NCBI GenBank assembly: GCA_027622275.1
Contig: JAQBZB010000076.1
Coordinates: 1 to 33,672 of the forward strand
Source: Planctomycetota bacterium
GTDB lineage: Bacteria > Planctomycetota > Planctomycetia > Pirellulales > Pirellulaceae
DNA: 33,672 bases
Direction of reading: 5' to 3'
Shown here: in pieces, positions 3,498 through 33,101 of the stretch
Layout of the letters: each line of letters starts with the position of its first letter
Position numbering within the stretch: position 1 is the stretch's first letter
Notes under the pieces: model-generated
Told to the model about the DNA's origin: nothing
The model's input: the letters and a program-made list of their open reading frames with translations, nothing else
The model's database searches: none
Made by a program: the position numbers and the translations under genes

Positions 3498-5186
3498 ATG
3501 AGTATCCGGCAACTGCCTTTCATCATTGCAACCACCCTTTCCGTTTGGCTACCGCTGAGGGCAGCTGCCGACGAGACGCAGTTCATCGACTGTTCGTTGC
3601 TGGTCGCACCCGAGTATCCCGCGACGTGGCCCACGGCTCCGTTCCCGCGTTTTCAGATCATGCATCAGCGGACGATCGGGCCCGATAGTCCTTACAACAT
3701 CGACGCGCTGCTGATCGATGGGAATACGGGCACGCAAATTGACGTGCCGCCGCATTCGGTGGCGCGACCTGACTTGAAGCGTCCGAAATCGGGCGAGTTG
3801 GGTTTGGCTTACATCGACAAGACAGAAGCGTGGCAGTTCGGCGGCGAAGCCTGCGTCGTGGATGTGCGCGATTTGCTCGACCAGGCTCCGAAGGGCGAAA
3901 GTCCGCTGGTGACGCGCGAGCACGTGCTGCGTTTCGAAAAGCAGCATCGCCAGTTGCGGTTCGGCGATGTCGTGTTGTTCCGCAGTGATTACTCCGACAA
4001 ATACTACCTGCCGCTGCCGGCCGGCAATCGCTACATCGCCGACGCACTCGATCACAAAGCGCCCGGCTATCCCGATCCCGATCCCGATTGCATGGAGCTG
4101 CTGGCAACGCGCAAGGTGCTGACGCTGGGAACCGACAGCGCGAGCATGGGGCCGCTGCCAAGTCTTGCCGAGCCGACACATTATGCGGGACTGAAGTACG
4201 GCATGATCTGGACGGAAGGCGCGACGAATCTTGGCGCGTTGCCGCCGACTGGTGCGTTTTACTGTATGTTCGGGCCGAAGCACAAAGGCGGACCTTATGG
4301 CGAAGGCCGAGCGTTCGCGATCGCGGGAGGCGACTTGCCAAAGCGGTTGATTGAATCGGCGAAGGCGAAGCGGGCGATCGATCTCACGCCGACGCTGGCT
4401 GCTGATTCGCCGGTCACCTCGCCCGGCATCGGTGCGGGCCAGCATCGACAGGTCTACTTGAAGATCGACTTCTTGTACTCCGAATATCTCGACATGTGGC
4501 ATCACACGCATCTGATGGACAGCATGGCGGGCACGCATCTCGTCCCGCCGTCCTTTGCGCTGCCACCCGAAGGCAAAGCCGTGCAATACGCGCCCCAAGT
4601 CCGCGGCTGGCTCGAAGAGTATGAAGGGAAGTACGGCGAGCGCGGGACAAGCTCGATGACCACCGAGCAAGTTCCGCTGTCGTGGACCTGCGGCGAGGCT
4701 CGCGTGATCGACGTGACCGCGCTCGTTGGCACGACCGACAAGCGAAGCTGGCCTGCTTCTCCCGAAATCACCGTCGCGCATCTCAAGGCGGACGAGCAGA
4801 AGCACGGCGAGTTGAGGGCAGGCGACGTCGTGATCTTTCATACCGGCCACATCGACAAACATTTCAAGCCACAACCCGCGGACACCGGCTTGTGGCTCGA
4901 TCCGCTCAACGGCACTGCCGAAGGTTGGCCCGTGCCTGGTCCGGACGCGATTGTCTATCTGAAAGAGAAAGGCATTCGTTGCGTAGCGACCGACGCGCCG
5001 GACCTCGGCGGCGTTGAACCGAAACGCGCACTGATGACCTACTGGACGCTTGGCAGTAACGAGATCGTAGGCGTCGAGTTCCTACACAACGTCGGCGAGA
5101 TTCCCGACAACGCCTACTTCCTGTTCGCCGCCGTCAAGATTCGCGACTGTCATGGCGGACCAGGGCGCGCGATCGTTCTGTACTGA
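3498..5186 (+). CDS. Secreted tandem putative cyclase (two PF04199-type domains)
   Basis: A 562-residue protein with a signal peptide (hydrophobic residues 7-20, AAA before residue 25). Two cyclase/kynurenine-formamidase-like domains follow, about 28-280 and 295-562. The family hydrolyses cyclic amides, formamides or lactones with a metal held by HxGTHxDxPxH. In domain 1 the motif is N76-T-G-T-Q80-I-D82-V-P-P-H86, so two histidines are replaced. In domain 2 it is M343-A-G-T-H347-L-V349-P-P-S-F353, so only the middle histidine stays. The downstream glutamate is kept in both (TEGATNL, VEFLHNV). Metal binding is therefore doubtful or is built differently. It is the first gene of a co-directional catabolic run, so it may act on the substrate outside the cytoplasm. 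Substrate unknown. Confidence 0.8.
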   Translation: MSIRQLPFIIATTLSVWLPLRAAADETQFIDCSLLVAPEYPATWPTAPFPRFQIMHQRTIGPDSPYNIDALLIDGNTGTQIDVPPHSVARPDLKRPKSGELGLAYIDKTEAWQFGGEACVVDVRDLLDQAPKGESPLVTREHVLRFEKQHRQLRFGDVVLFRSDYSDKYYLPLPAGNRYIADALDHKAPGYPDPDPDCMELLATRKVLTLGTDSASMGPLPSLAEPTHYAGLKYGMIWTEGATNLGALPPTGAFYCMFGPKHKGGPYGEGRAFAIAGGDLPKRLIESAKAKRAIDLTPTLAADSPVTSPGIGAGQHRQVYLKIDFLYSEYLDMWHHTHLMDSMAGTHLVPPSFALPPEGKAVQYAPQVRGWLEEYEGKYGERGTSSMTTEQVPLSWTCGEARVIDVTALVGTTDKRSWPASPEITVAHLKADEQKHGELRAGDVVIFHTGHIDKHFKPQPADTGLWLDPLNGTAEGWPVPGPDAIVYLKEKGIRCVATDAPDLGGVEPKRALMTYWTLGSNEIVGVEFLHNVGEIPDNAYFLFAAVKIRDCHGGPGRAIVLY

Positions 5187-5193
5187 CTCTTTC

Positions 5194-5289
5194 AACCACG
5201 AAAGGCACGAAAATCACGAAAGGAAATCCGAAGATGCTTGTTCTGATTTGATCCCTTCTTCTTTCGTGTATTTCGTGCCTTTCGTGGTT
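5194..5289. repeat. Palindromic repeat, empty copy of the element flanking the GxxExxY gene
   Basis: Arms at 5194-5222 and 5261-5289 are 29 bases, inverted, with two mismatches. Each arm holds three spaced CACGAAA units. The 38-base centre has no gene. The right arm is identical to 10222-10250, the right arm of the loaded copy. It fills most of the gap between the cyclase stop (5186) and the transporter start (5310). Confidence 0.9.
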
Positions 5290-5309
5290 CCTCCTGTTCG
5301 AATACTTTC

Positions 5310-6887
5310 ATGAGCGACCTTCCAAAGACCTGCCTCCCCACATGGGACATCGCCGAACTTCCGGAACCGAAGCCGCTCGGTCTGCGGAACCTCGCTGGGT
5401 TCATCGGCCCCGGCATCGTGATGTGCGGGATTCAGATTGGGGGCGGCGAGTGGTTGTTTGGGCCCGCGATCACGGCGAAGTACGGCGGGGGGTTGATGTG
5501 GATTGCGACCGTCGCGATCGTATGCCAAGTCTTTTACAACGTCGAATGCGGACGCTATGCGCTCTACACCGGCGAACCTGTCTTTACAGGCTTCATGCGG
5601 ACCAGGCCCGGTCCGGGATTCTGGGTCGGCTTCGCGATGCTGCTCAGCATTGGAGCACTTATTCCAGGCCTGTCCACCAACGCCGCGGTGTTGATCACGT
5701 CGATGATTCTCAATCGTCCGCCCACGCCCGACGATGCGCTTATGGTCAATACGATCGCTTACTTGTGCCTTGCGCTAGTGGTCCTACCAGTGCTCGTCGG
5801 CGGCAAGGTCTACAACATGTTGCAGGTGGTAATGACCGCCAAGGTCTTTATCGTATTGGGGTTCTGTCTGTTCATCGGTGTGTTCTTTGTCAGCGCGCAG
5901 GGCTGGCTCGACGTCTTCAGCGGGTTCGTCAAATTTGGCAACGTGCCGGTGGATGACGGGCAAGGCGGCGAGAAAGTCGTCAACGCGTTCACGCATTGGT
6001 TTGAGTTCGGAGAGTTTCCCGTCGTGGCGATGACGAGCATCGCGGTGCTCGGTGCCTTCGCGGGATACGCCGGCGGCGGCGGACTGAGTAATTCCACCTA
6101 CAGCAACTTTGTCCGCGACAAGGGCTGGGGCATGGGCAGCGAGGTAGGAGCAATCGCCAGTGCCGTCGGTGGCCGCAATGTTTCGCTCAGCCACATCGGC
6201 AAGGTCTTTGTGATCAACGAAGACAATCTGCGCAAGTGGAGGGGATGGTGGAGGTACATTTTGACGGACCAGTTTCTTATCTGGATGCCCGGCTGCGTGA
6301 TGGGCATGGCGCTGCCCGCGTTGCTGTCGATCGAATTCGCGTCCAGTTCGCCGATGTTCGGCCAGGATCTCCCGTACGCGCAGTCGCTGATCTCGGCGGA
6401 CGGAATTCGCCACGCGCCGGGCCTCGCCGCTTCGACTCGCCAGCTGCTGTGGATAGCCACGCTGTTCGTCGGCCTGATGGTGTTTCTTCCCAGCCAGATG
6501 GCGATCGTGGACGACTTTGCCCGCCGCTGGACCGACATCATCTGGTCGTCGATCCCGAGAATTCGCAACCGGCTCAAGCCGCATCAGGCCGGCCGGATCT
6601 ACTACACGATTCTGGCCTTCTACGTCTTATGGTCGTTCGTTTCGGCTACGATCTTTCTGATGTTTGGCGATGCTCCCAGGCTGATGGTGCTAGTCATTGC
6701 GAACCTGAACAACGTGGCACTCGGCGTGACCGCGTTTCATGTGCTGTGGATTAATCGCACACTGCTGCCACAACCACTCCGTCCGCGCTGGTACAACCAG
6801 CTTGGCATCTTGGCGTGCGGCGTGTTCTATTGCGGCATGGCGATGCTCGTGTTTTGTGCCAAGATCCTTCCGTTGATAACCGGTTGA
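5310..6887 (+). CDS. Nramp-related membrane transporter lacking the metal motifs
   Basis: A 525-residue integral membrane protein with about 11 hydrophobic segments, matching the Nramp/LeuT-fold count. The first segment, after an N-terminal soluble stretch, reads GPGIVMCGIQIGGGEW (33-48), in the place where metal-transporting Nramps have DPGN. The sixth segment reads GAFAGYAGGGGLSN instead of the MPH-containing helix. Both unwound-helix sites are glycine-rich, so a substrate other than Mn2+ or Fe2+ is likely. Neighbours are a secreted cyclase before it and an SDR 11 bases after it, which suggests uptake of the organic product of the cyclase. This role is inferred from context only. The ATG at 5310 has no strong ribosome-binding site and lies 20 bases after the palindrome. 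Confidence 0.8.
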   Translation: MSDLPKTCLPTWDIAELPEPKPLGLRNLAGFIGPGIVMCGIQIGGGEWLFGPAITAKYGGGLMWIATVAIVCQVFYNVECGRYALYTGEPVFTGFMRTRPGPGFWVGFAMLLSIGALIPGLSTNAAVLITSMILNRPPTPDDALMVNTIAYLCLALVVLPVLVGGKVYNMLQVVMTAKVFIVLGFCLFIGVFFVSAQGWLDVFSGFVKFGNVPVDDGQGGEKVVNAFTHWFEFGEFPVVAMTSIAVLGAFAGYAGGGGLSNSTYSNFVRDKGWGMGSEVGAIASAVGGRNVSLSHIGKVFVINEDNLRKWRGWWRYILTDQFLIWMPGCVMGMALPALLSIEFASSSPMFGQDLPYAQSLISADGIRHAPGLAASTRQLLWIATLFVGLMVFLPSQMAIVDDFARRWTDIIWSSIPRIRNRLKPHQAGRIYYTILAFYVLWSFVSATIFLMFGDAPRLMVLVIANLNNVALGVTAFHVLWINRTLLPQPLRPRWYNQLGILACGVFYCGMAMLVFCAKILPLITG

Positions 6888-6898
6888 GGGATTTGAAT

Positions 6899-7708
6899 AT
6901 GACTCACTCGATGTTCGATCTTGCCGGCCGAGTCGCGCTCGTCACTGGTGCCGCGAGCGGCATGGGCAAAGCGTCTTCGCTGGCGTTGGCCGAAGCTGGT
7001 GCCGATGTTGTACTGGCCGATCTGAACGAAGAAGGAGCGAGAGCCGTGGCGGCCGAGATCGAATCGCTCGGTCGCCGGGCGATGCCCGTCCGCTGTGACG
7101 TCTCGAAGCCGGAGCACATTCGCGCGATGTTCGGCCTAGTCGACGATACGTTCGGGCAGATTGATTTCGTTGCCAACATCGCGGGCGAAGCGGTTCGCAA
7201 GAAGCCGGAAGTCATCTCGCTCGATGACGTCGAATGGACGTGGCGAAATCTGGTTTACGGACGCTTCTGCATGTGCCAGGAAGCTGGCCGCCGAATGTTG
7301 GCCGCTGGCAAGGGAAGTATCGTCAACCTCGGTTCGCTCGCCAGTATCACAGCAATGGGCCGCGGACACATTGCCTACAGCATGGCGATGGGCGCGGTGG
7401 TACAGATGACCCGCGAGCTGAGTACCGAATGGAGTGGCCGCGGCGTGCGAGTCAATTCGATCTTGCCGGCCCAGGTGTTAAATCCTGGCTTGCAGGCGCG
7501 AATCGATTCTGATCCTCGCATCAAGGACCGGTTCCTAAGCGGCATTCCAGCAGGCCGCTTCGGCAGCCCGGATGACATCAAAGGCCTCGTCGTTTTTTTG
7601 GCGTCCGACGCCTCGTCTTGGATCACCGGCGCGATCATTCCGATGGATGGTGGGAATCTAGCAATGAATGCGGGTGGGTCCGTTGGTAGCGAAGTGTTCA
7701 ACGAATAA
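6899..7708 (+). CDS. Short-chain dehydrogenase/reductase with YxxxM in place of YxxxK
   Basis: A 269-residue classical SDR. The NAD(P) loop is TGAASGMG (16-23), D41 at the end of the second strand suggests NAD+, and NIAG (93-96) is the structural NNAG-type motif. The catalytic serine is probably S146 (IVNLGS) and the tyrosine Y160. The catalytic lysine four residues later is methionine, M164 (codon ATG at 7388-7390; AAG would give lysine). The C-terminus has the usual SDR ending (GAIIPMDGG). It lies 11 bases after the transporter gene; in the pathway it would oxidise a hydroxy-acid or similar. With the lysine lost, activity is doubtful unless another residue substitutes. The start codon is chosen by family length; a longer frame reaches back into the transporter. 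Confidence 0.9.
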   Translation: MTHSMFDLAGRVALVTGAASGMGKASSLALAEAGADVVLADLNEEGARAVAAEIESLGRRAMPVRCDVSKPEHIRAMFGLVDDTFGQIDFVANIAGEAVRKKPEVISLDDVEWTWRNLVYGRFCMCQEAGRRMLAAGKGSIVNLGSLASITAMGRGHIAYSMAMGAVVQMTRELSTEWSGRGVRVNSILPAQVLNPGLQARIDSDPRIKDRFLSGIPAGRFGSPDDIKGLVVFLASDASSWITGAIIPMDGGNLAMNAGGSVGSEVFNE

Positions 7709-7714
7709 GCAGGG

Positions 7715-7786
7715 TCGTTTAACGGCAAGCCGGAGGCGACGGCTTCGGGCTGCCGGCATCGACGCCTGCGGCTTGCCGTTAAACGA
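7715..7786. repeat. Palindromic repeat between SDR and E1 genes
   Basis: Arms at 7715-7738 and 7763-7786 are 24 bases and inverted with one mismatch; the left arm starts TCGTTTAACGGCAAGCC. A 24-base centre separates them. The sequence is unrelated to the other palindromes in the window. It begins 6 bases after the SDR stop and ends 15 bases before the E1 start. Confidence 0.85.
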
Positions 7787-7801
7787 GTCAGAGCAACAAA
7801 C

Positions 7802-9799
7802 ATGACAACGACAACAAAGACGCAACTCGACAAGCAAACGCTGCTTTCGCTCTACCGCACGATGCAGATCATTCGCCAGTGCGAAGAGCGGCTGGCGAAG
7901 TCGCATCAACGCGGCTTGGTCCACGGAGCGTGCCACACGTACGTCGGCCAGGAAGCGATCGCCACCGGCGTGTTCGCCCATTTGCGCAACGAAGACGTCG
8001 TCTTCAGCACGCACCGTGGACATGGCCATGCATTGGCGAAAGGCATGCATCCCAAAGAGCTGATCGCCGAGCTGTACGGTCGCGAAACGGGCTGTTCACA
8101 AGGACGCGGCGGCAGTATGCACTTGTTCAAGCCAGAGATTGGCATGATGGGGACGAGTGGCATCGTCGGACCATGTATCTTGCATGCGTGCGGCGCCGGG
8201 TATGCCTTCAAGATCAAGAAGTCAGACAACGTCGCGGCGGCGTGTTTCGGCGACGGAGCGGTTAACAACGGCGCGTTCCATGAAGGGCTGAACATGGCCA
8301 GCATCTGGAAGCTGCCCGTGATCTTCGTCGTCGAGAACAATCAGTTCGCGACCGAGGTTCCGTTCAGCTACTCCAGCGGCATCCCCGACGTCGGCCGACG
8401 CGCGGAGAACTACGGGATGCCGGGGTTTGAACTCGATGGCAACGACGTTCTCGAGATACATCGCGTGGCCAGCGAGGCGATCGAACGGGCTCGTGTCGGG
8501 GGCGGGCCGACGTTGATCGAGTGCAAGACTTACCGCACGCGGGCCCACGCCGAAGGCATGGGCGATTTCAGCTATCGCACGAAAGAAGATGTTGAAGAGT
8601 GGAAGACGCGTTGTCCGATCCAGCGGCTGCGAAGCTGTCTTGTCGATGAAGGCGCGGCGACCGCCGACGAACTCGACGCGATCGAACAAGAAATTCGCGA
8701 TCTGATCGAGCAGTCGCACCAGTTCGCGGAAGCCAGTGCGTATCCCGCAGGCGAGTCCGCGACCGCGCATGCGTACTGGGAAGGTGAAGCGAAGCCGATT
8801 GCTGCCGAACCGCTGCCCGGTACGCGCGAAACAACTTTCGTCGCGGCGACTCACGAAGCGCTCGACCACGCAATGGCCGAGAACCCGCACATCTTCGTCA
8901 TGGGTGAAGGGATTGGCGTTCGCGGCGGGAACTTCATGACGACGGCCGGGCTATACGACAAGTATGGCGCGGAGCGGCTGTGCGATACGCCGATTTGCGA
9001 ACGCGGTTTTGTGGGACTCGGCTGCGGCGCGGCGGCGACGGGAGCGAGGCCGGTGATCGACTTCATGTTCATCGACTTCATCAACGATGCGTTCGGCGAG
9101 ATGATCAACCAGATCGCGAAGATGCAGTACATGAGCAGCGGCCGGCTGAAGATGCCGATCTTGCTGCGTGGTTGCGGCGGCATCGGGCATTCGGCCGCGA
9201 CGCACCACTCGGGCATGTATCACTCGATCTACGCACACATCCCGGGCTTGCGAGTCGTCATGCCGTCGACTCCGTACGATGCCAAAGGGTTGATCGCACA
9301 CGCCTTGCGATCCAACGACCCGGTGCTGTTTCTCGAACATCGCGAGCTGATGTCGATCAAGGGTCCGGTGCCCGAAGAGAACTACGAGATCCCGTTCGGC
9401 CAAGCCAAAGTCGTACGGGAAGGGACCGATGCAACGGTCGTCGCGATCTCGTTGATGGTCCAGCACGCCATCAAAGCGGCCGAGCAGCTCGCCGCCGAAG
9501 GCATCTCGATCGAAATCGTCGATCCGCGCACGGTGTCGCCGCTCGATACGGAGACGATCTTGAAATCGGTCGCCAAGACGGGCCGAGTGCTGGTCGTCGA
9601 TGAAGCGTTTGGTCCCTGTAGCGTCGCATCGGAGATCGCGGCTCAGATCGCGGATGCCGGCTTCGACGATCTTGATGCGCCGGTTAAACGGCTCAACGGA
9701 GCGTTTGCACCCACGCCGTATTCGCCGACGTTGGAGAAGGCGGTTGTGCCGCATGTGGAAGATGTTGTGAGGGCGATTCGCTTGCTGCTCGAAGAGTGA
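7802..9799 (+). CDS. 2-oxoacid dehydrogenase E1, alpha and beta subunits fused
   Basis: A 665-residue thiamine diphosphate enzyme that decarboxylates a 2-oxo acid and passes the acyl group to the E2 lipoyl arm. The alpha part (about 1-325) has the TPP motif GDGAVNNG (150-157) closed by ENN (178-180). A linker leads into the beta part (about 343-665), with VMGEGIGVRGG, the histidine-rich HHSGMYHSIYAH loop, VVMPSTPYDAKGL and a transketolase C-terminal domain. Alpha and beta are usually separate genes in the pyruvate, branched-chain and acetoin complexes; the fused form is known in some lineages. The closest recall is the acetoin/branched-chain type, but the substrate cannot be named. E2 is the next operon gene, after the inserted GxxExxY cassette; no E3 is present. 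Confidence 0.92.
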   Translation: MTTTTKTQLDKQTLLSLYRTMQIIRQCEERLAKSHQRGLVHGACHTYVGQEAIATGVFAHLRNEDVVFSTHRGHGHALAKGMHPKELIAELYGRETGCSQGRGGSMHLFKPEIGMMGTSGIVGPCILHACGAGYAFKIKKSDNVAAACFGDGAVNNGAFHEGLNMASIWKLPVIFVVENNQFATEVPFSYSSGIPDVGRRAENYGMPGFELDGNDVLEIHRVASEAIERARVGGGPTLIECKTYRTRAHAEGMGDFSYRTKEDVEEWKTRCPIQRLRSCLVDEGAATADELDAIEQEIRDLIEQSHQFAEASAYPAGESATAHAYWEGEAKPIAAEPLPGTRETTFVAATHEALDHAMAENPHIFVMGEGIGVRGGNFMTTAGLYDKYGAERLCDTPICERGFVGLGCGAAATGARPVIDFMFIDFINDAFGEMINQIAKMQYMSSGRLKMPILLRGCGGIGHSAATHHSGMYHSIYAHIPGLRVVMPSTPYDAKGLIAHALRSNDPVLFLEHRELMSIKGPVPEENYEIPFGQAKVVREGTDATVVAISLMVQHAIKAAEQLAAEGISIEIVDPRTVSPLDTETILKSVAKTGRVLVVDEAFGPCSVASEIAAQIADAGFDDLDAPVKRLNGAFAPTPYSPTLEKAVVPHVEDVVRAIRLLLEE

Positions 9800-9800
9800 C

Positions 9801-10250
9801 AACCACGAAAGGCACGAAAGGGGAAAGAGATGGGTATTGTTTATAAGGATGAGAGTTATGCGATTATGGGGGCGTGCTTTGAGGTTTATCGAGAGATCGG
9901 ATGTGGCTTTGTGGAGCCGGTGTACCAAGAGTGTTTGGAGATCGAACTTCAAATTCAAGCGTTGCCTTTCAAACCACGACAAGAGCTTGTGCTGACTTAC
10001 AAGAACAAGCAATTGAAACAGAAGTATGTGCCGGACTTCCTGTGCTATGACAAGATCGTTCTAGAAATCAAGGCGGTCGAGAAACTGATCGATAAGCACC
10101 GTGCTCAAGTTCACAACTATCTCAAGGCAACCGGCTACAAACTTGGCCTCCTCGTGAACTTCGGCGGCTACCCAAAAGTCGAATACGAACGCATCGTCCG
10201 TTAGCACCTTCCCCCTATCCCCTTTCGTGTATTTCGTGCCTTTCGTGGTT
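9801..10250. mobile_element. Putative mobile cassette: inverted repeats flanking a GxxExxY gene
   Basis: The left arm begins AACCACGAAAGGCACGAAAG (9801-9820) and the right arm at 10222-10250 is its inverse over 19 bases, then diverges. The right arm is identical over 29 bases to the right arm of the gene-free element at 5194-5289. The cassette carries one gene in the direction of the operon and occupies almost the whole gap between E1 (stop at 9799) and E2 (start at 10262). The purine-rich end of the left arm (GGGGAAAGAG) directly precedes the cargo ATG and may serve as its ribosome-binding site. No transposase and no target duplication were identified. Confidence 0.75.
9830..10204 (+). CDS. 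GxxExxY family protein (PD-(D/E)XK nuclease-like)
   Basis: A 124-residue protein. The name-giving motif is G26-F-V-E29-P-V-Y32. A PD-(D/E)XK-like core follows: P68-D69, then E79-I-K81, then the family-typical QVHNYLKATG and LLVNFGG. Members are small, often present in many copies per genome, and have no settled function; nuclease activity is inferred from the fold. The ATG at 9830 is preceded by GGGGAAAGAG, a good ribosome-binding site. The gene interrupts an otherwise standard E1-E2 gene pair and is bounded by inverted repeats, so it is probably an insertion unrelated to the pathway. Unlike its neighbours it is less GC-rich, with more AAG/AAA and TAT/TTT codons, which supports a different origin. 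Confidence 0.9.
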   Translation: MGIVYKDESYAIMGACFEVYREIGCGFVEPVYQECLEIELQIQALPFKPRQELVLTYKNKQLKQKYVPDFLCYDKIVLEIKAVEKLIDKHRAQVHNYLKATGYKLGLLVNFGGYPKVEYERIVR

Positions 10251-10261
10251 GGAAATCTCCC

Positions 10262-11443
10262 ATGCCCATCGAAATCGTAGTTCCGCGTCTCGGCTGGTCG
10301 ATGGACGAAGGTACGTTCGGCGAGTGGCTCAAAGACGACGGCGAGTTGATCAACGCAGGCGATATGATCTTCGTGCTGGAAGGCGAGAAGGCGTCGCAAG
10401 AGATCGAGTCGTTCGACGCGGGGATTCTTCACATCCCGCCGGACGCTCCGCAGCCGGGAGACACGGTCGCCGTCGGGCAGTTGCTCGGTTATTTGCTCGC
10501 GGAGGGTGAGTCTGCACCTGTGAGAAGCAACTTGGCGGTCGCTTCAAAGCCGCCAAGCACGATTGAAACTCGTGACACAGCAACACGAACCAGCGAACCG
10601 AAGACGCGACGGATTGTCGTCACGCCTCGCGCTCGGCGAAAGGCCAACGAGCTGGGAGTGGATTCGTCGTTAATCAGCGGCTCCGGACGAAATGGCAGGG
10701 TTCGTGAACGTGATGTCGTCGCGTTCACCCAACCTGCGGCATCGGGAACTCAACGATCCGTCACCAATATCCGCCTCACGATCGCCCAACGGGTGCTGGC
10801 GGGCGTCCAGCAAACGGCTCCCGTCACCTTGACCACGAAAGTCGATGCCACGCAATTGCTGGCGTACCGGGAGCGGCTGAAGCTGGAGCAGGCTGGCGGA
10901 AACATCCCGAGTTACAACGATATCCTCACGAAACTCGTGGCGGCGGCGCTGCCGGAGTGTCCCGAGTTGAATGCTTGTTGGCGGAACGACGGTATCTTCC
11001 TCTACGACCAAGTCAACATCGCGATCGCCATCGACACCGAGAGCGGACTCGTCGCTCCCGTCATCAACAATGTGGCAGCTCTTTCGTTGGACGAGATCGC
11101 CTCGCAATCGCGCATGCTCGCCGAACAAGCGCGCGCGGGAACGCTTTCGCAGAGCCAGCTGCAAGGCGGAACTTTCACGATTACGAATTTGGGCATGTTC
11201 GACATCGACTTCTTTACGCCGATCATCAACTTGCCGCAAGCCGCGATCCTGGGCGTTGGCCGGATCGTTCGCGAGCCTGTCGTTGTTGGCGATCGTGTTG
11301 AACCAGGGTATCAGTTAAGCTTGAGTCTGACGTTCGATCATCGCATCCTAGATGGTGGTCCAGCCGCCCGCTGGCTGCAACGACTTGCAAAGATGATCCG
11401 AGATCCAGAGCAATACCTTTCGCTATCTATTGACGCTCGATGA
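10262..11443 (+). CDS. 2-oxoacid dehydrogenase E2 (lipoyl acyltransferase)
   Basis: A 393-residue protein with the three usual parts. The lipoyl domain spans about 1-80, with the lipoylated lysine at K43 (EGEKASQE). A flexible linker is followed by a short E3/E1-binding domain (about 120-155; TPRARRKANELGV, then GSGRNGRVRERDV). The catalytic domain is about 165-393 and ends with FDHRILDGGPAA, where H360 is the catalytic histidine. It takes the acyl group from the E1 encoded just upstream and transfers it to CoA. The single lipoyl domain fits the branched-chain/acetoin type. The E3 partner must be encoded elsewhere. Its TGA overlaps the ATG of the next gene, which suggests translational coupling. 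Confidence 0.93.
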   Translation: MPIEIVVPRLGWSMDEGTFGEWLKDDGELINAGDMIFVLEGEKASQEIESFDAGILHIPPDAPQPGDTVAVGQLLGYLLAEGESAPVRSNLAVASKPPSTIETRDTATRTSEPKTRRIVVTPRARRKANELGVDSSLISGSGRNGRVRERDVVAFTQPAASGTQRSVTNIRLTIAQRVLAGVQQTAPVTLTTKVDATQLLAYRERLKLEQAGGNIPSYNDILTKLVAAALPECPELNACWRNDGIFLYDQVNIAIAIDTESGLVAPVINNVAALSLDEIASQSRMLAEQARAGTLSQSQLQGGTFTITNLGMFDIDFFTPIINLPQAAILGVGRIVREPVVVGDRVEPGYQLSLSLTFDHRILDGGPAARWLQRLAKMIRDPEQYLSLSIDAR

Positions 11444-21222: not shown

Positions 21223-21340
21223 AGTCTGTCCGCTTAATCACGTACGATGGCCTTCCAAGGCCGTCGTTCACCCGCATCGTAGGGAGACGACGGCCTTGGA
21301 AGGCCATCGTCCGAAAGGAAACGCGGTATCCGGACAGACT
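21223..21340. repeat. Nested palindromic repeat upstream of the kinase gene
   Basis: Inner arms at 21244-21267 and 21287-21310 are perfect 24-base inverted repeats. Outer arms AGTCTGTCCG (21223-21232) and CGGACAGACT (21331-21340) are also perfect. Each inner arm contains its own palindrome (GGCCTTCCAAGGCC), so each can fold alone. The element ends 38 bases before the kinase start, and the rest of the 21110-21378 gap shows nothing else. It resembles the BIME-like elements elsewhere in the window in layout, not in sequence. Confidence 0.85.
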
Positions 21341-33035: not shown

Positions 33036-33101
33036 GTAGTGGTGGCTTCCAGCCGCCACGTGATTTCACGGGAATTTGTGGCGGCTGGAAGCCACCACTA
33101 C
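33036..33101. repeat. Perfect 24-bp inverted repeat downstream of the sulfotransferase
   Basis: Arms at 33036-33059 and 33078-33101 are perfect inverse copies with an 18-base centre. Each arm can fold on itself: GTGGTGGCT and AGCCGCCAC pair with one mismatch. The remainder of the 32982-33207 gap shows nothing recognisable. No T-tract follows, so a terminator role is possible but unproven. Confidence 0.85.

Follow-up and report, generated by a model that had tools for sequence, protein, structure and literature searches.

GxxExxY genes between inverted tandem-unit arrays: a candidate small mobile element of bacteria

In a planctomycete genome a small gene of the GxxExxY family lies between inverted repeats, and the same repeat occurs without a gene in the same gene run. 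Do repeats and gene belong together, and could they form one mobile element? The window analysed here is the whole stretch of 33,672 nucleotides, part of a 9.78-Mb genome in 555 contigs (contig 281). A sequence-only reading of it had claimed that the gene is bounded by inverted repeats, that the right repeat is identical over 29 bases to that of a gene-free palindrome, and that both elements fill gaps within one gene run. All three claims held. The features concerned are the following.

5194–5222, forward strand: left arm of the gene-free palindrome, from repeat analysis of the window
5223–5260, no strand: 38-nt loop of the gene-free palindrome, from repeat analysis and folding
5261–5289, forward strand: right arm of the gene-free palindrome, 29 nt identical to 10222–10250
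7802–9799, forward strand: a single ORF for the alpha and beta parts of a pyruvate dehydrogenase-type E1, upstream of the insertion site
9800–9827, forward strand: left arm of the loaded cassette, two CACGAAA units at period 9, then the inner part GGGGAAAG
9818–9823, forward strand: Shine-Dalgarno-like AAGGGG at the inner edge of the left arm, inferred by reading the sequence
9830–10204, forward strand: GxxExxY protein gene, 124 aa, PD-(D/E)XK nuclease with a predicted Cas4/lambda-exonuclease-like fold
10215–10251, forward strand: right arm of the loaded cassette, three units
10262–11443, forward strand: E2 acyltransferase gene, downstream of the insertion site

The ORF between the arms matches both TIGR04256 GxxExxY (E 3.5e-40, 137 bits against a curated cut-off of 35) and PF13366 (PDDEXK_3; E 1.2e-40, 138.9 bits against a cut-off of 22). 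The loaded cassette fills the gap between E1 and E2, and the gene-free palindrome fills the one between an ORF at 3498–5186 and the next ORF, which starts at 5310. The window arm is built of tandem CACGAAA units at a 9-nt period, with AACC at the entry. With two 9-nt units in the left arm against three in the right, the inner parts pair only after a shift of one unit. The gene-free palindrome has three units per arm, and its fold as DNA (5190–5293) reaches -33.1 kcal/mol (z -9.1, equalled by 0/200 shuffles). The suggestion that the left repeat supplies the ribosome-binding site is plausible, although inferred from the sequence only; AAGGGG lies 7–12 nt ahead of the GxxExxY ATG.

With up to two mismatches, the arm was matched at 16 places in the 9.78-Mb genome and its reversed control at none, so the repeats are not due to chance. 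Paired up, these 16 places yield seven gene-free palindromes with two arms each, besides a solo arm and the right arm of the loaded cassette. The only other GxxExxY gene of the genome is also located between inverted arms, of a different unit (CAGGATGGA), a clue that the rule exceeds one repeat sequence. A known RNA family was rejected as an explanation of the repeats: the sole match at E ≤1 in positions 4900–10700 was to a microRNA model (30.1 bits against a gathering threshold of 87) and was taken as chance.

The window holds other inverted repeats. Two of them (1977–2122 and 33036–33101) have outer ends GTAG...CTAC, which resemble those of GTAG-tagged REP elements (PMC3733652), and two further strong 27-nt inverted repeats (7715–7786 and 21241–21313) are not of the unit type. 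The genome has 14 matches to Y1 transposases, and true REPINs may therefore coexist with the unit palindromes.

The sequence-only reading knew a single arm sequence. What holds generally is a class of short tandem units, with the unit differing by locus. In the arm test the left flank was aligned with the reverse complement of the right flank, and a best alignment score of ≥14 was counted as a pass. After 5 of 202 loci had been dropped for cut flanks, inverted flanking arms were found at 165 of the 197 GxxExxY loci with full flanks. The pass rate was 57/59 for loci from the window's own genome, its order and its phylum, 52/59 for loci of multicopy genomes, and 56/79 for loci of named genomes, one viral contig included. 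Judged from record titles, the passing loci cover at least 12 phyla, including Planctomycetota, Verrucomicrobiota, Bacteroidota, Chloroflexota, Acidobacteriota, Cyanobacteria, Pseudomonadota, Armatimonadota and Hydrogenedentota. ParE toxin genes from the same genome sample had arms at 0/30 loci, and in the shifted-window control (900–1000 nt) 2/177 and 1/144 passed, 3/321 in total. The samples are not random. Order and phylum loci are the best-scoring matches and hence selected; the named-genome sample comprises 80 of at least 540 confirmed cases, chosen by one peptide pattern; and 60 extra loci were taken from 14 hand-picked multicopy genomes.

Most arms are arrays in which a 7-nt unit, C-R-C-N-R-A-(A/G/T) or CRCNRAD, is repeated in tandem at a period of 8–10 nt; examples of the unit are CACAGAG, CACGGAG, CGCAAAG, CACGAAA, CACGAAT and CACAGAT. 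The best period was 8, 9 or 10 nt in 148/167 left arms. At least two CRCNRAD units were present in both arms at 123 of the 165 passing loci and in at least one arm at 131, and a three-unit chain in both flanks was seen at 105/197 GxxExxY loci versus 0/26 ParE loci. The remaining 34 passing loci lack a chain of two CRCNRAD units; by eye most of them bear variant units such as ACAGGAT, CATGAAG or GGGAGAT. Four loci (L261, L264, L269 and L272) pass the arm test, yet no unit array was found in them. The plan is arm-gene-arm in 135/162 loci, with a complete palindrome on one side in 21 and on both sides in 6. The arm test failed at 32/197 loci, 23 of which belong to the 79 named-genome loci. Clear non-examples below the threshold include L187, L209, L221, L224, L239, L277 and L312, and weak arrays include L191, L202 and L219; eight failing loci still have at least two units in both arms.

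Often, as in L171, L175, L181 and others, the left arm contains no stop in the reading frame of the gene. An upstream start within it would add N-terminal residues such as HHRDTEDTE or TAEVAEGAE, and it is possible that annotated GxxExxY starts are wrong.

Arm sequence follows the protein, not the host. A unit resembles its partner in the opposite arm, and from locus to locus it changes along with the protein. The similarity of arms was correlated with the identity of proteins at a Mantel r of 0.51 against a null maximum of 0.12 in 2000 permutations (160 of 202 loci were usable, 42 were dropped). In comparisons between multicopy genomes, with the host held constant by permuting arms solely within each genome, r was 0.45 and the null maximum 0.24 (0/2000).

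Ordered by identity to the window protein, the series is roughly graded. CACGAAA is found at 73% and 71%, CACGAAT at 70% and 63%, CGCGAAT at 67% (weak arms, score 11) and CACGGAT at 62%. Around 60% the picture is mixed, with CGCGAAA-like units at 60% (G031) and 54% (G014), CACGAAT-like at 60% (G091), CACGAAA at 59% (G121, score 13.5), and no arms around another protein of 59% identity (G107). CRCGAAT follows at 53–56% (G081, G123 and G058) and 49% (G064), and at ≤47% CRCTAAT is found in four of five cases, the fifth (G119) being without clear arms.

Arms are linked to the gene, and covariation in cis could thus reflect co-inheritance without recognition. In a trans test, a protein at least 54% identical to that of the window was present in 5/8 genomes with three or more CACGAAA arms versus 9/138 others (p 2e-4; within gene-bearing genomes p 0.004). 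The test is weakened by two of these five genomes, G014 and G031, where the arms flanking the gene of that protein are CGCGAAA-like.

In genomes that hold GxxExxY, gene-free palindromes occur in multiple copies. Of 146 genomes of the order, 15 show the CACGAAA pattern, and each of these is one of the 78 that have PF13366 (p 4e-5). In the phylum, the pattern ACCACRGAG occurs in 66/294 genomes. GxxExxY was found in 139 of these 294, namely in 57/66 arm-bearing versus 82/228 other genomes (Fisher 1e-13, not corrected for phylogeny). A repeat scattered without association to GxxExxY genes had been named as the refuting case; with co-occurrence in 15/15 arm-bearing genomes of the order and 57/66 of the phylum, this case did not arise. 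GxxExxY was undetectable in 9 of the 66 arm-bearing phylum genomes, and G432, a single-contig genome rated 100% complete, has none despite 30 arms. The sample maximum of 416 arms was reached in G189, a 12.3-Mb genome with only two GxxExxY genes.

Gene-free and loaded copies share termini within one genome, both in the window (5261–5289 equals 10222–10250) and in G189, where the empty palindromes L339, L341 and L342 share a longer arm extension, GGATGTCACCACGGAG, with the loaded L188. The IVP family is also present in all 15 arm-bearing genomes of the order sample, the only one of the two in which IVP was counted, so GxxExxY cannot be singled out on that sample. In G149, the unit palindromes L354 and L355 lie within a longer repeated stretch with AT-rich ends and by eye look captured by, or grown into, another element.

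Is the element variable at a given site? Presence and absence were shown at orthologous intergenic sites, namely the E1-E2 junction and one site of a second region, in the genus g54. E1 was sought in 40 family relatives; the 14 best-matching loci were examined, and 13 of these had E2 within reach. In 12 of the 13 the E1-E2 gap is 6–85 nt and holds no palindrome. The relatives' gaps lack the cassette, which most simply entered in the lineage of this genome. In the closest relative, G449 (E1 93% identical), the gap is 105 nt and contains an empty palindrome of another 7-nt unit (TTGGTCA/TTAGTCA type) directly after the E1 stop. The same junction has thus been struck by a different palindrome in the nearest relative. 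Comparison of E1-E2 loci, as the sequence-only reading had proposed, confirmed that relatives lack the cassette and left the exact insertion ends undefined.

In the g54 region two cassettes are in synteny across three species, which indicates slow movement. Site 2 is filled in three species; read by eye, it has no palindrome in two and carries an empty 7-nt-unit palindrome in another. Also by eye, the gene within the arms at site 1 is decayed in one species, and in another the site holds three palindromes of different units, nested concentrically. At L385 (G095:C2:510014-513433), site 1 is occupied by some 3.1 kb of other DNA.

The element was found in loaded, decayed and gene-free forms. Gene fragments lie between arms at four sampled places (L366/L151, L160, L166 and L382, the last at only 15 bits), and in L366 the N-terminus is fused to the C-terminus with intact arms. 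The long interiors of palindromes in G129 (388–430 nt) and G430 (401 nt) showed no trace of GxxExxY, and a long interior need therefore not be a recognisable relic. The earlier proposal of an empty, MITE-like form and a loaded form is thus supported by multicopy empties, decayed cassettes and site polymorphism. Overlapping or concentric palindromes of different unit types share one gap in L384 (G111:C37:15278-15865), L164 and L165; such nesting hints that loops could be preferred targets.

A target duplication of ≥4 nt was found in 0/59 arm pairs (shuffled mean 0.18), with the element end assumed at ACC/GGT and some of the 59 pairs sharing an arm. Exact element ends could not be defined in g54 either, where the spacers are too diverged for comparison. 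For the syntenic cassettes dS was undefined in 5/6 pairs, and dN/dS was 0.16 in the sixth.

What kind of protein is encoded? In a 44-sequence alignment E29, D69 and E79 are invariant, Y97 is invariant or nearly so, and K81 and Q93 are conserved in ≥90%. We take these conserved E, D, ExK and QxxxY residues to be the motifs of PD-(D/E)XK/Cas4-type nucleases. The model of the window protein (pLDDT 96.1) is predicted to fold like Cas4/lambda exonuclease. The top Foldseek match was SSO0001, which we take to be a Cas4 (E 1.4e-4, TM 0.61; VIA Z 10.1), followed by lambda exonuclease and LHK-Exo at E 1e-3 and above. Nucleases of this type act on DNA ends and single strands. A sequence search for relatives of solved structure gave none at E ≤1.

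A phage origin was rejected: there was no match among 50,697 phage records and none in PHROG at E 0.01, and IMG/VR gave one viral contig with GxxExxY, on which the arms are present. A GxxExxY relative was found in 8/72,556 plasmid records. PADLOC gave only PDC-M36A (E 0.007 over 55 residues). The bearing passages of open-access papers naming the GxxExxY/PF13366 family give no function for it.

On balance we favour, by a modest margin, the reading that the two arms and the GxxExxY gene they enclose make up a single mobile element, small at about 450 bp. With similarly limited confidence we regard it as a REPIN/RAYT-like two-part element built on a PD-(D/E)XK nuclease, the role of the nuclease as mover being inferred. 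The GxxExxY protein would recognise the unit array of its own subclade, an inference made without binding data, most likely as single strand, hairpin or cruciform, as palindromes form at replication forks. The nuclease would then cut at or in the palindrome and start movement, for which there are no cleavage data, and repair or replication would copy the element to a new intergenic place without target duplication. Alternatively, the gene may be copied into an empty palindrome with the arms as homology, a form of homing in which the empty site is cut and repaired from a loaded one. Loss of the gene would yield gene-free palindromes, by-products that may be moved in trans, in the way proposed for REPINs and RAYTs. 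Neither excision, insertion nor cleavage was observed, and movement by the nuclease remains an inference.

The sequence-only reading had left two possibilities, a protein acting on the repeats or a passenger. In the passenger reading another enzyme (Y1/RAYT, the IVP protein or host repair) moves the palindromes and GxxExxY is cargo at a safe address. Several observations speak for it: the nine arm-bearing genomes without the gene, the 416 arms beside two genes in G189, and IVP in all 15 arm-bearing genomes of the order sample. Furthermore, Y1 transposases (PF01797, which includes the RAYT type) are present in 185/294 phylum genomes and are by themselves associated with arms (53/66 vs 132/228, p 5e-4), marginally so outside gene-bearing genomes (7/9 vs 65/146, p 0.05), the seven being among the nine without the gene. 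Inside gene-bearing genomes, however, no association of Y1 with arms was found (46/57 vs 67/82, p 0.65), and Y1/RAYT as driver was rejected on this ground. The association of gene and arms holds both with Y1 (p ~2e-6) and without it (p ~1e-6), and 11 arm-bearing genomes have the gene but no Y1. IVP genes have strict 7-nt units of their own, and cargo would not be expected to track unit sequence over many subclades with the host controlled. The covariation of arms and protein thus leans towards a protein that acts on the repeats, in the absence of any activity data, and we consider the passenger reading unlikely.

Two other readings are very unlikely in our view. Long mRNA hairpins could stabilise or insulate a small operon gene, selected locus by locus and immobile, as the strong fold of the empty palindrome and the position of the left arm near the ribosome-binding site might suggest. 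Against this stand the dozens of gene-free copies in some genomes, the absence of the whole unit at orthologous sites, the nested palindromes of different units in one gap and the lack of arms at all 30 ParE loci; a regulatory role is already hard to hold as the sole one. The gene could also be the nuclease of an anti-phage or toxin system travelling in repeats, a defence or toxin islet. It is small, patchy and multicopy, and its predicted fold is Cas4-like, but the weak PDC-M36A match was all that PADLOC offered, PHROG gave nothing at E 0.01, the plan is plain arm-gene-arm in 135/162 loci, and about 450 bp is too short to accommodate a partner gene.

A bolder reading concerns IVP genes as well (PF05635, four-helix-bundle), which had inverted arms at 25/30 loci (L108–L137). 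These arms consist of tandem units whose best period was 7 or 14 nt at 23 of the 24 loci measured, and they covary with the IVP protein (r 0.45, 24 loci, 0/5000); six of the 30 loci were dropped from both measures. GxxExxY and IVP elements might each form a branch of a single class of selfish DNA in bacteria that has no name so far. In this class a small protein other than a transposase, either a Cas4-like nuclease or a four-helix-bundle protein, would spread by recognising the inverted tandem-unit arrays that belong to it, and the code linking protein to unit would be readable. The widespread short-unit palindromes of environmental bacteria, perhaps also cyanobacterial short tandem repeats, would be non-autonomous offspring. 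Insertion into the palindrome loop, i.e. homing, would explain both the nested palindromes and the loading of empties. We hold this joint claim only tentatively and would sooner bet against it than for it.

Returning to the favoured reading of a nuclease-based two-part element, gene and repeats together resemble a type of small mobile DNA that has so far been overlooked. With such covarying arms the widely annotated GxxExxY family has a testable substrate, and the gene's usual address between arms gives many orphan palindromes a likely origin. If the nuclease moves the palindromes, this would be a transposition-like system without a known transposase class; to our knowledge no such class matches it. 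No description of a GxxExxY-repeat element was found in the open-access literature searched, with preprints and most subscription papers outside the scope. Nor did the arm sequence strings match in the full texts of that literature, and papers on TIGR04256/PF13366-type accessions held nothing on these repeats in the bearing passages.

The closest known counterpart is REPIN-RAYT. There as here, extragenic multicopy inverted-repeat doublets forming hairpins occur beside one dedicated protein gene; the repeats are thought to co-evolve with the protein, and movement in trans has been proposed (PMC3116915). Unlike in REPIN-RAYT, the enzyme here is a PD-(D/E)XK nuclease (PF13366) and not a Y1/HUH transposase, and the co-occurrence of arm and gene is independent of Y1. 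Furthermore, a REP arm is an imperfect palindrome, whereas the arm here is a tandem short-unit array that does not fold alone. The left arm of the window, the only one tested, had a minimum free energy of 0 kcal/mol, and a single arm as a REP-type hairpin was rejected. The cassette works like REPIN-RAYT yet has neither a Y1 transposase nor a self-palindromic arm, two features that define that system, and was not filed there.

Intervening sequences also combine a small ORF with terminal inverted repeats. IVP ORFs have been described from intervening sequences of rRNA that carry a terminal stem, of 28 bp in the Coxiella 23S rRNA IVS, and for these sequences a transposition origin has merely been suggested (PMC4990558). 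However, the S23/IVP four-helix-bundle ORF is unrelated to a PD-(D/E)XK nuclease, the period is strictly 7 nt there versus 8–10 nt for GxxExxY, and the unit sequences differ. MITEs of DDE transposons resemble the present elements in having gene-free copies with terminal inverted repeats and internally deleted derivatives. What sets the GxxExxY elements apart is that their arms enclose no DDE transposase gene and that none of the 59 arm pairs showed a target duplication of ≥4 nt.

Among dispersed intergenic tandem 7-mers of unknown mechanism, STRRs are heptamer tandem repeats of cyanobacteria, and TAACTGA heptamer tandem repeats have been reported from Beggiatoaceae (PMC4679880). Such repeats have mostly been described in direct orientation, and the relevant passages name no linked protein, whereas the arrays here are inverted and tied to a gene family. 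The protein itself shares its predicted fold and the conserved E, D, ExK and QxxxY residues with Cas4, lambda exonuclease and RecB-type nucleases, but its model has 124 residues versus 202–228 in the top matched chains. Membership in this group is predicted from a model, and rests on fold and residues only.
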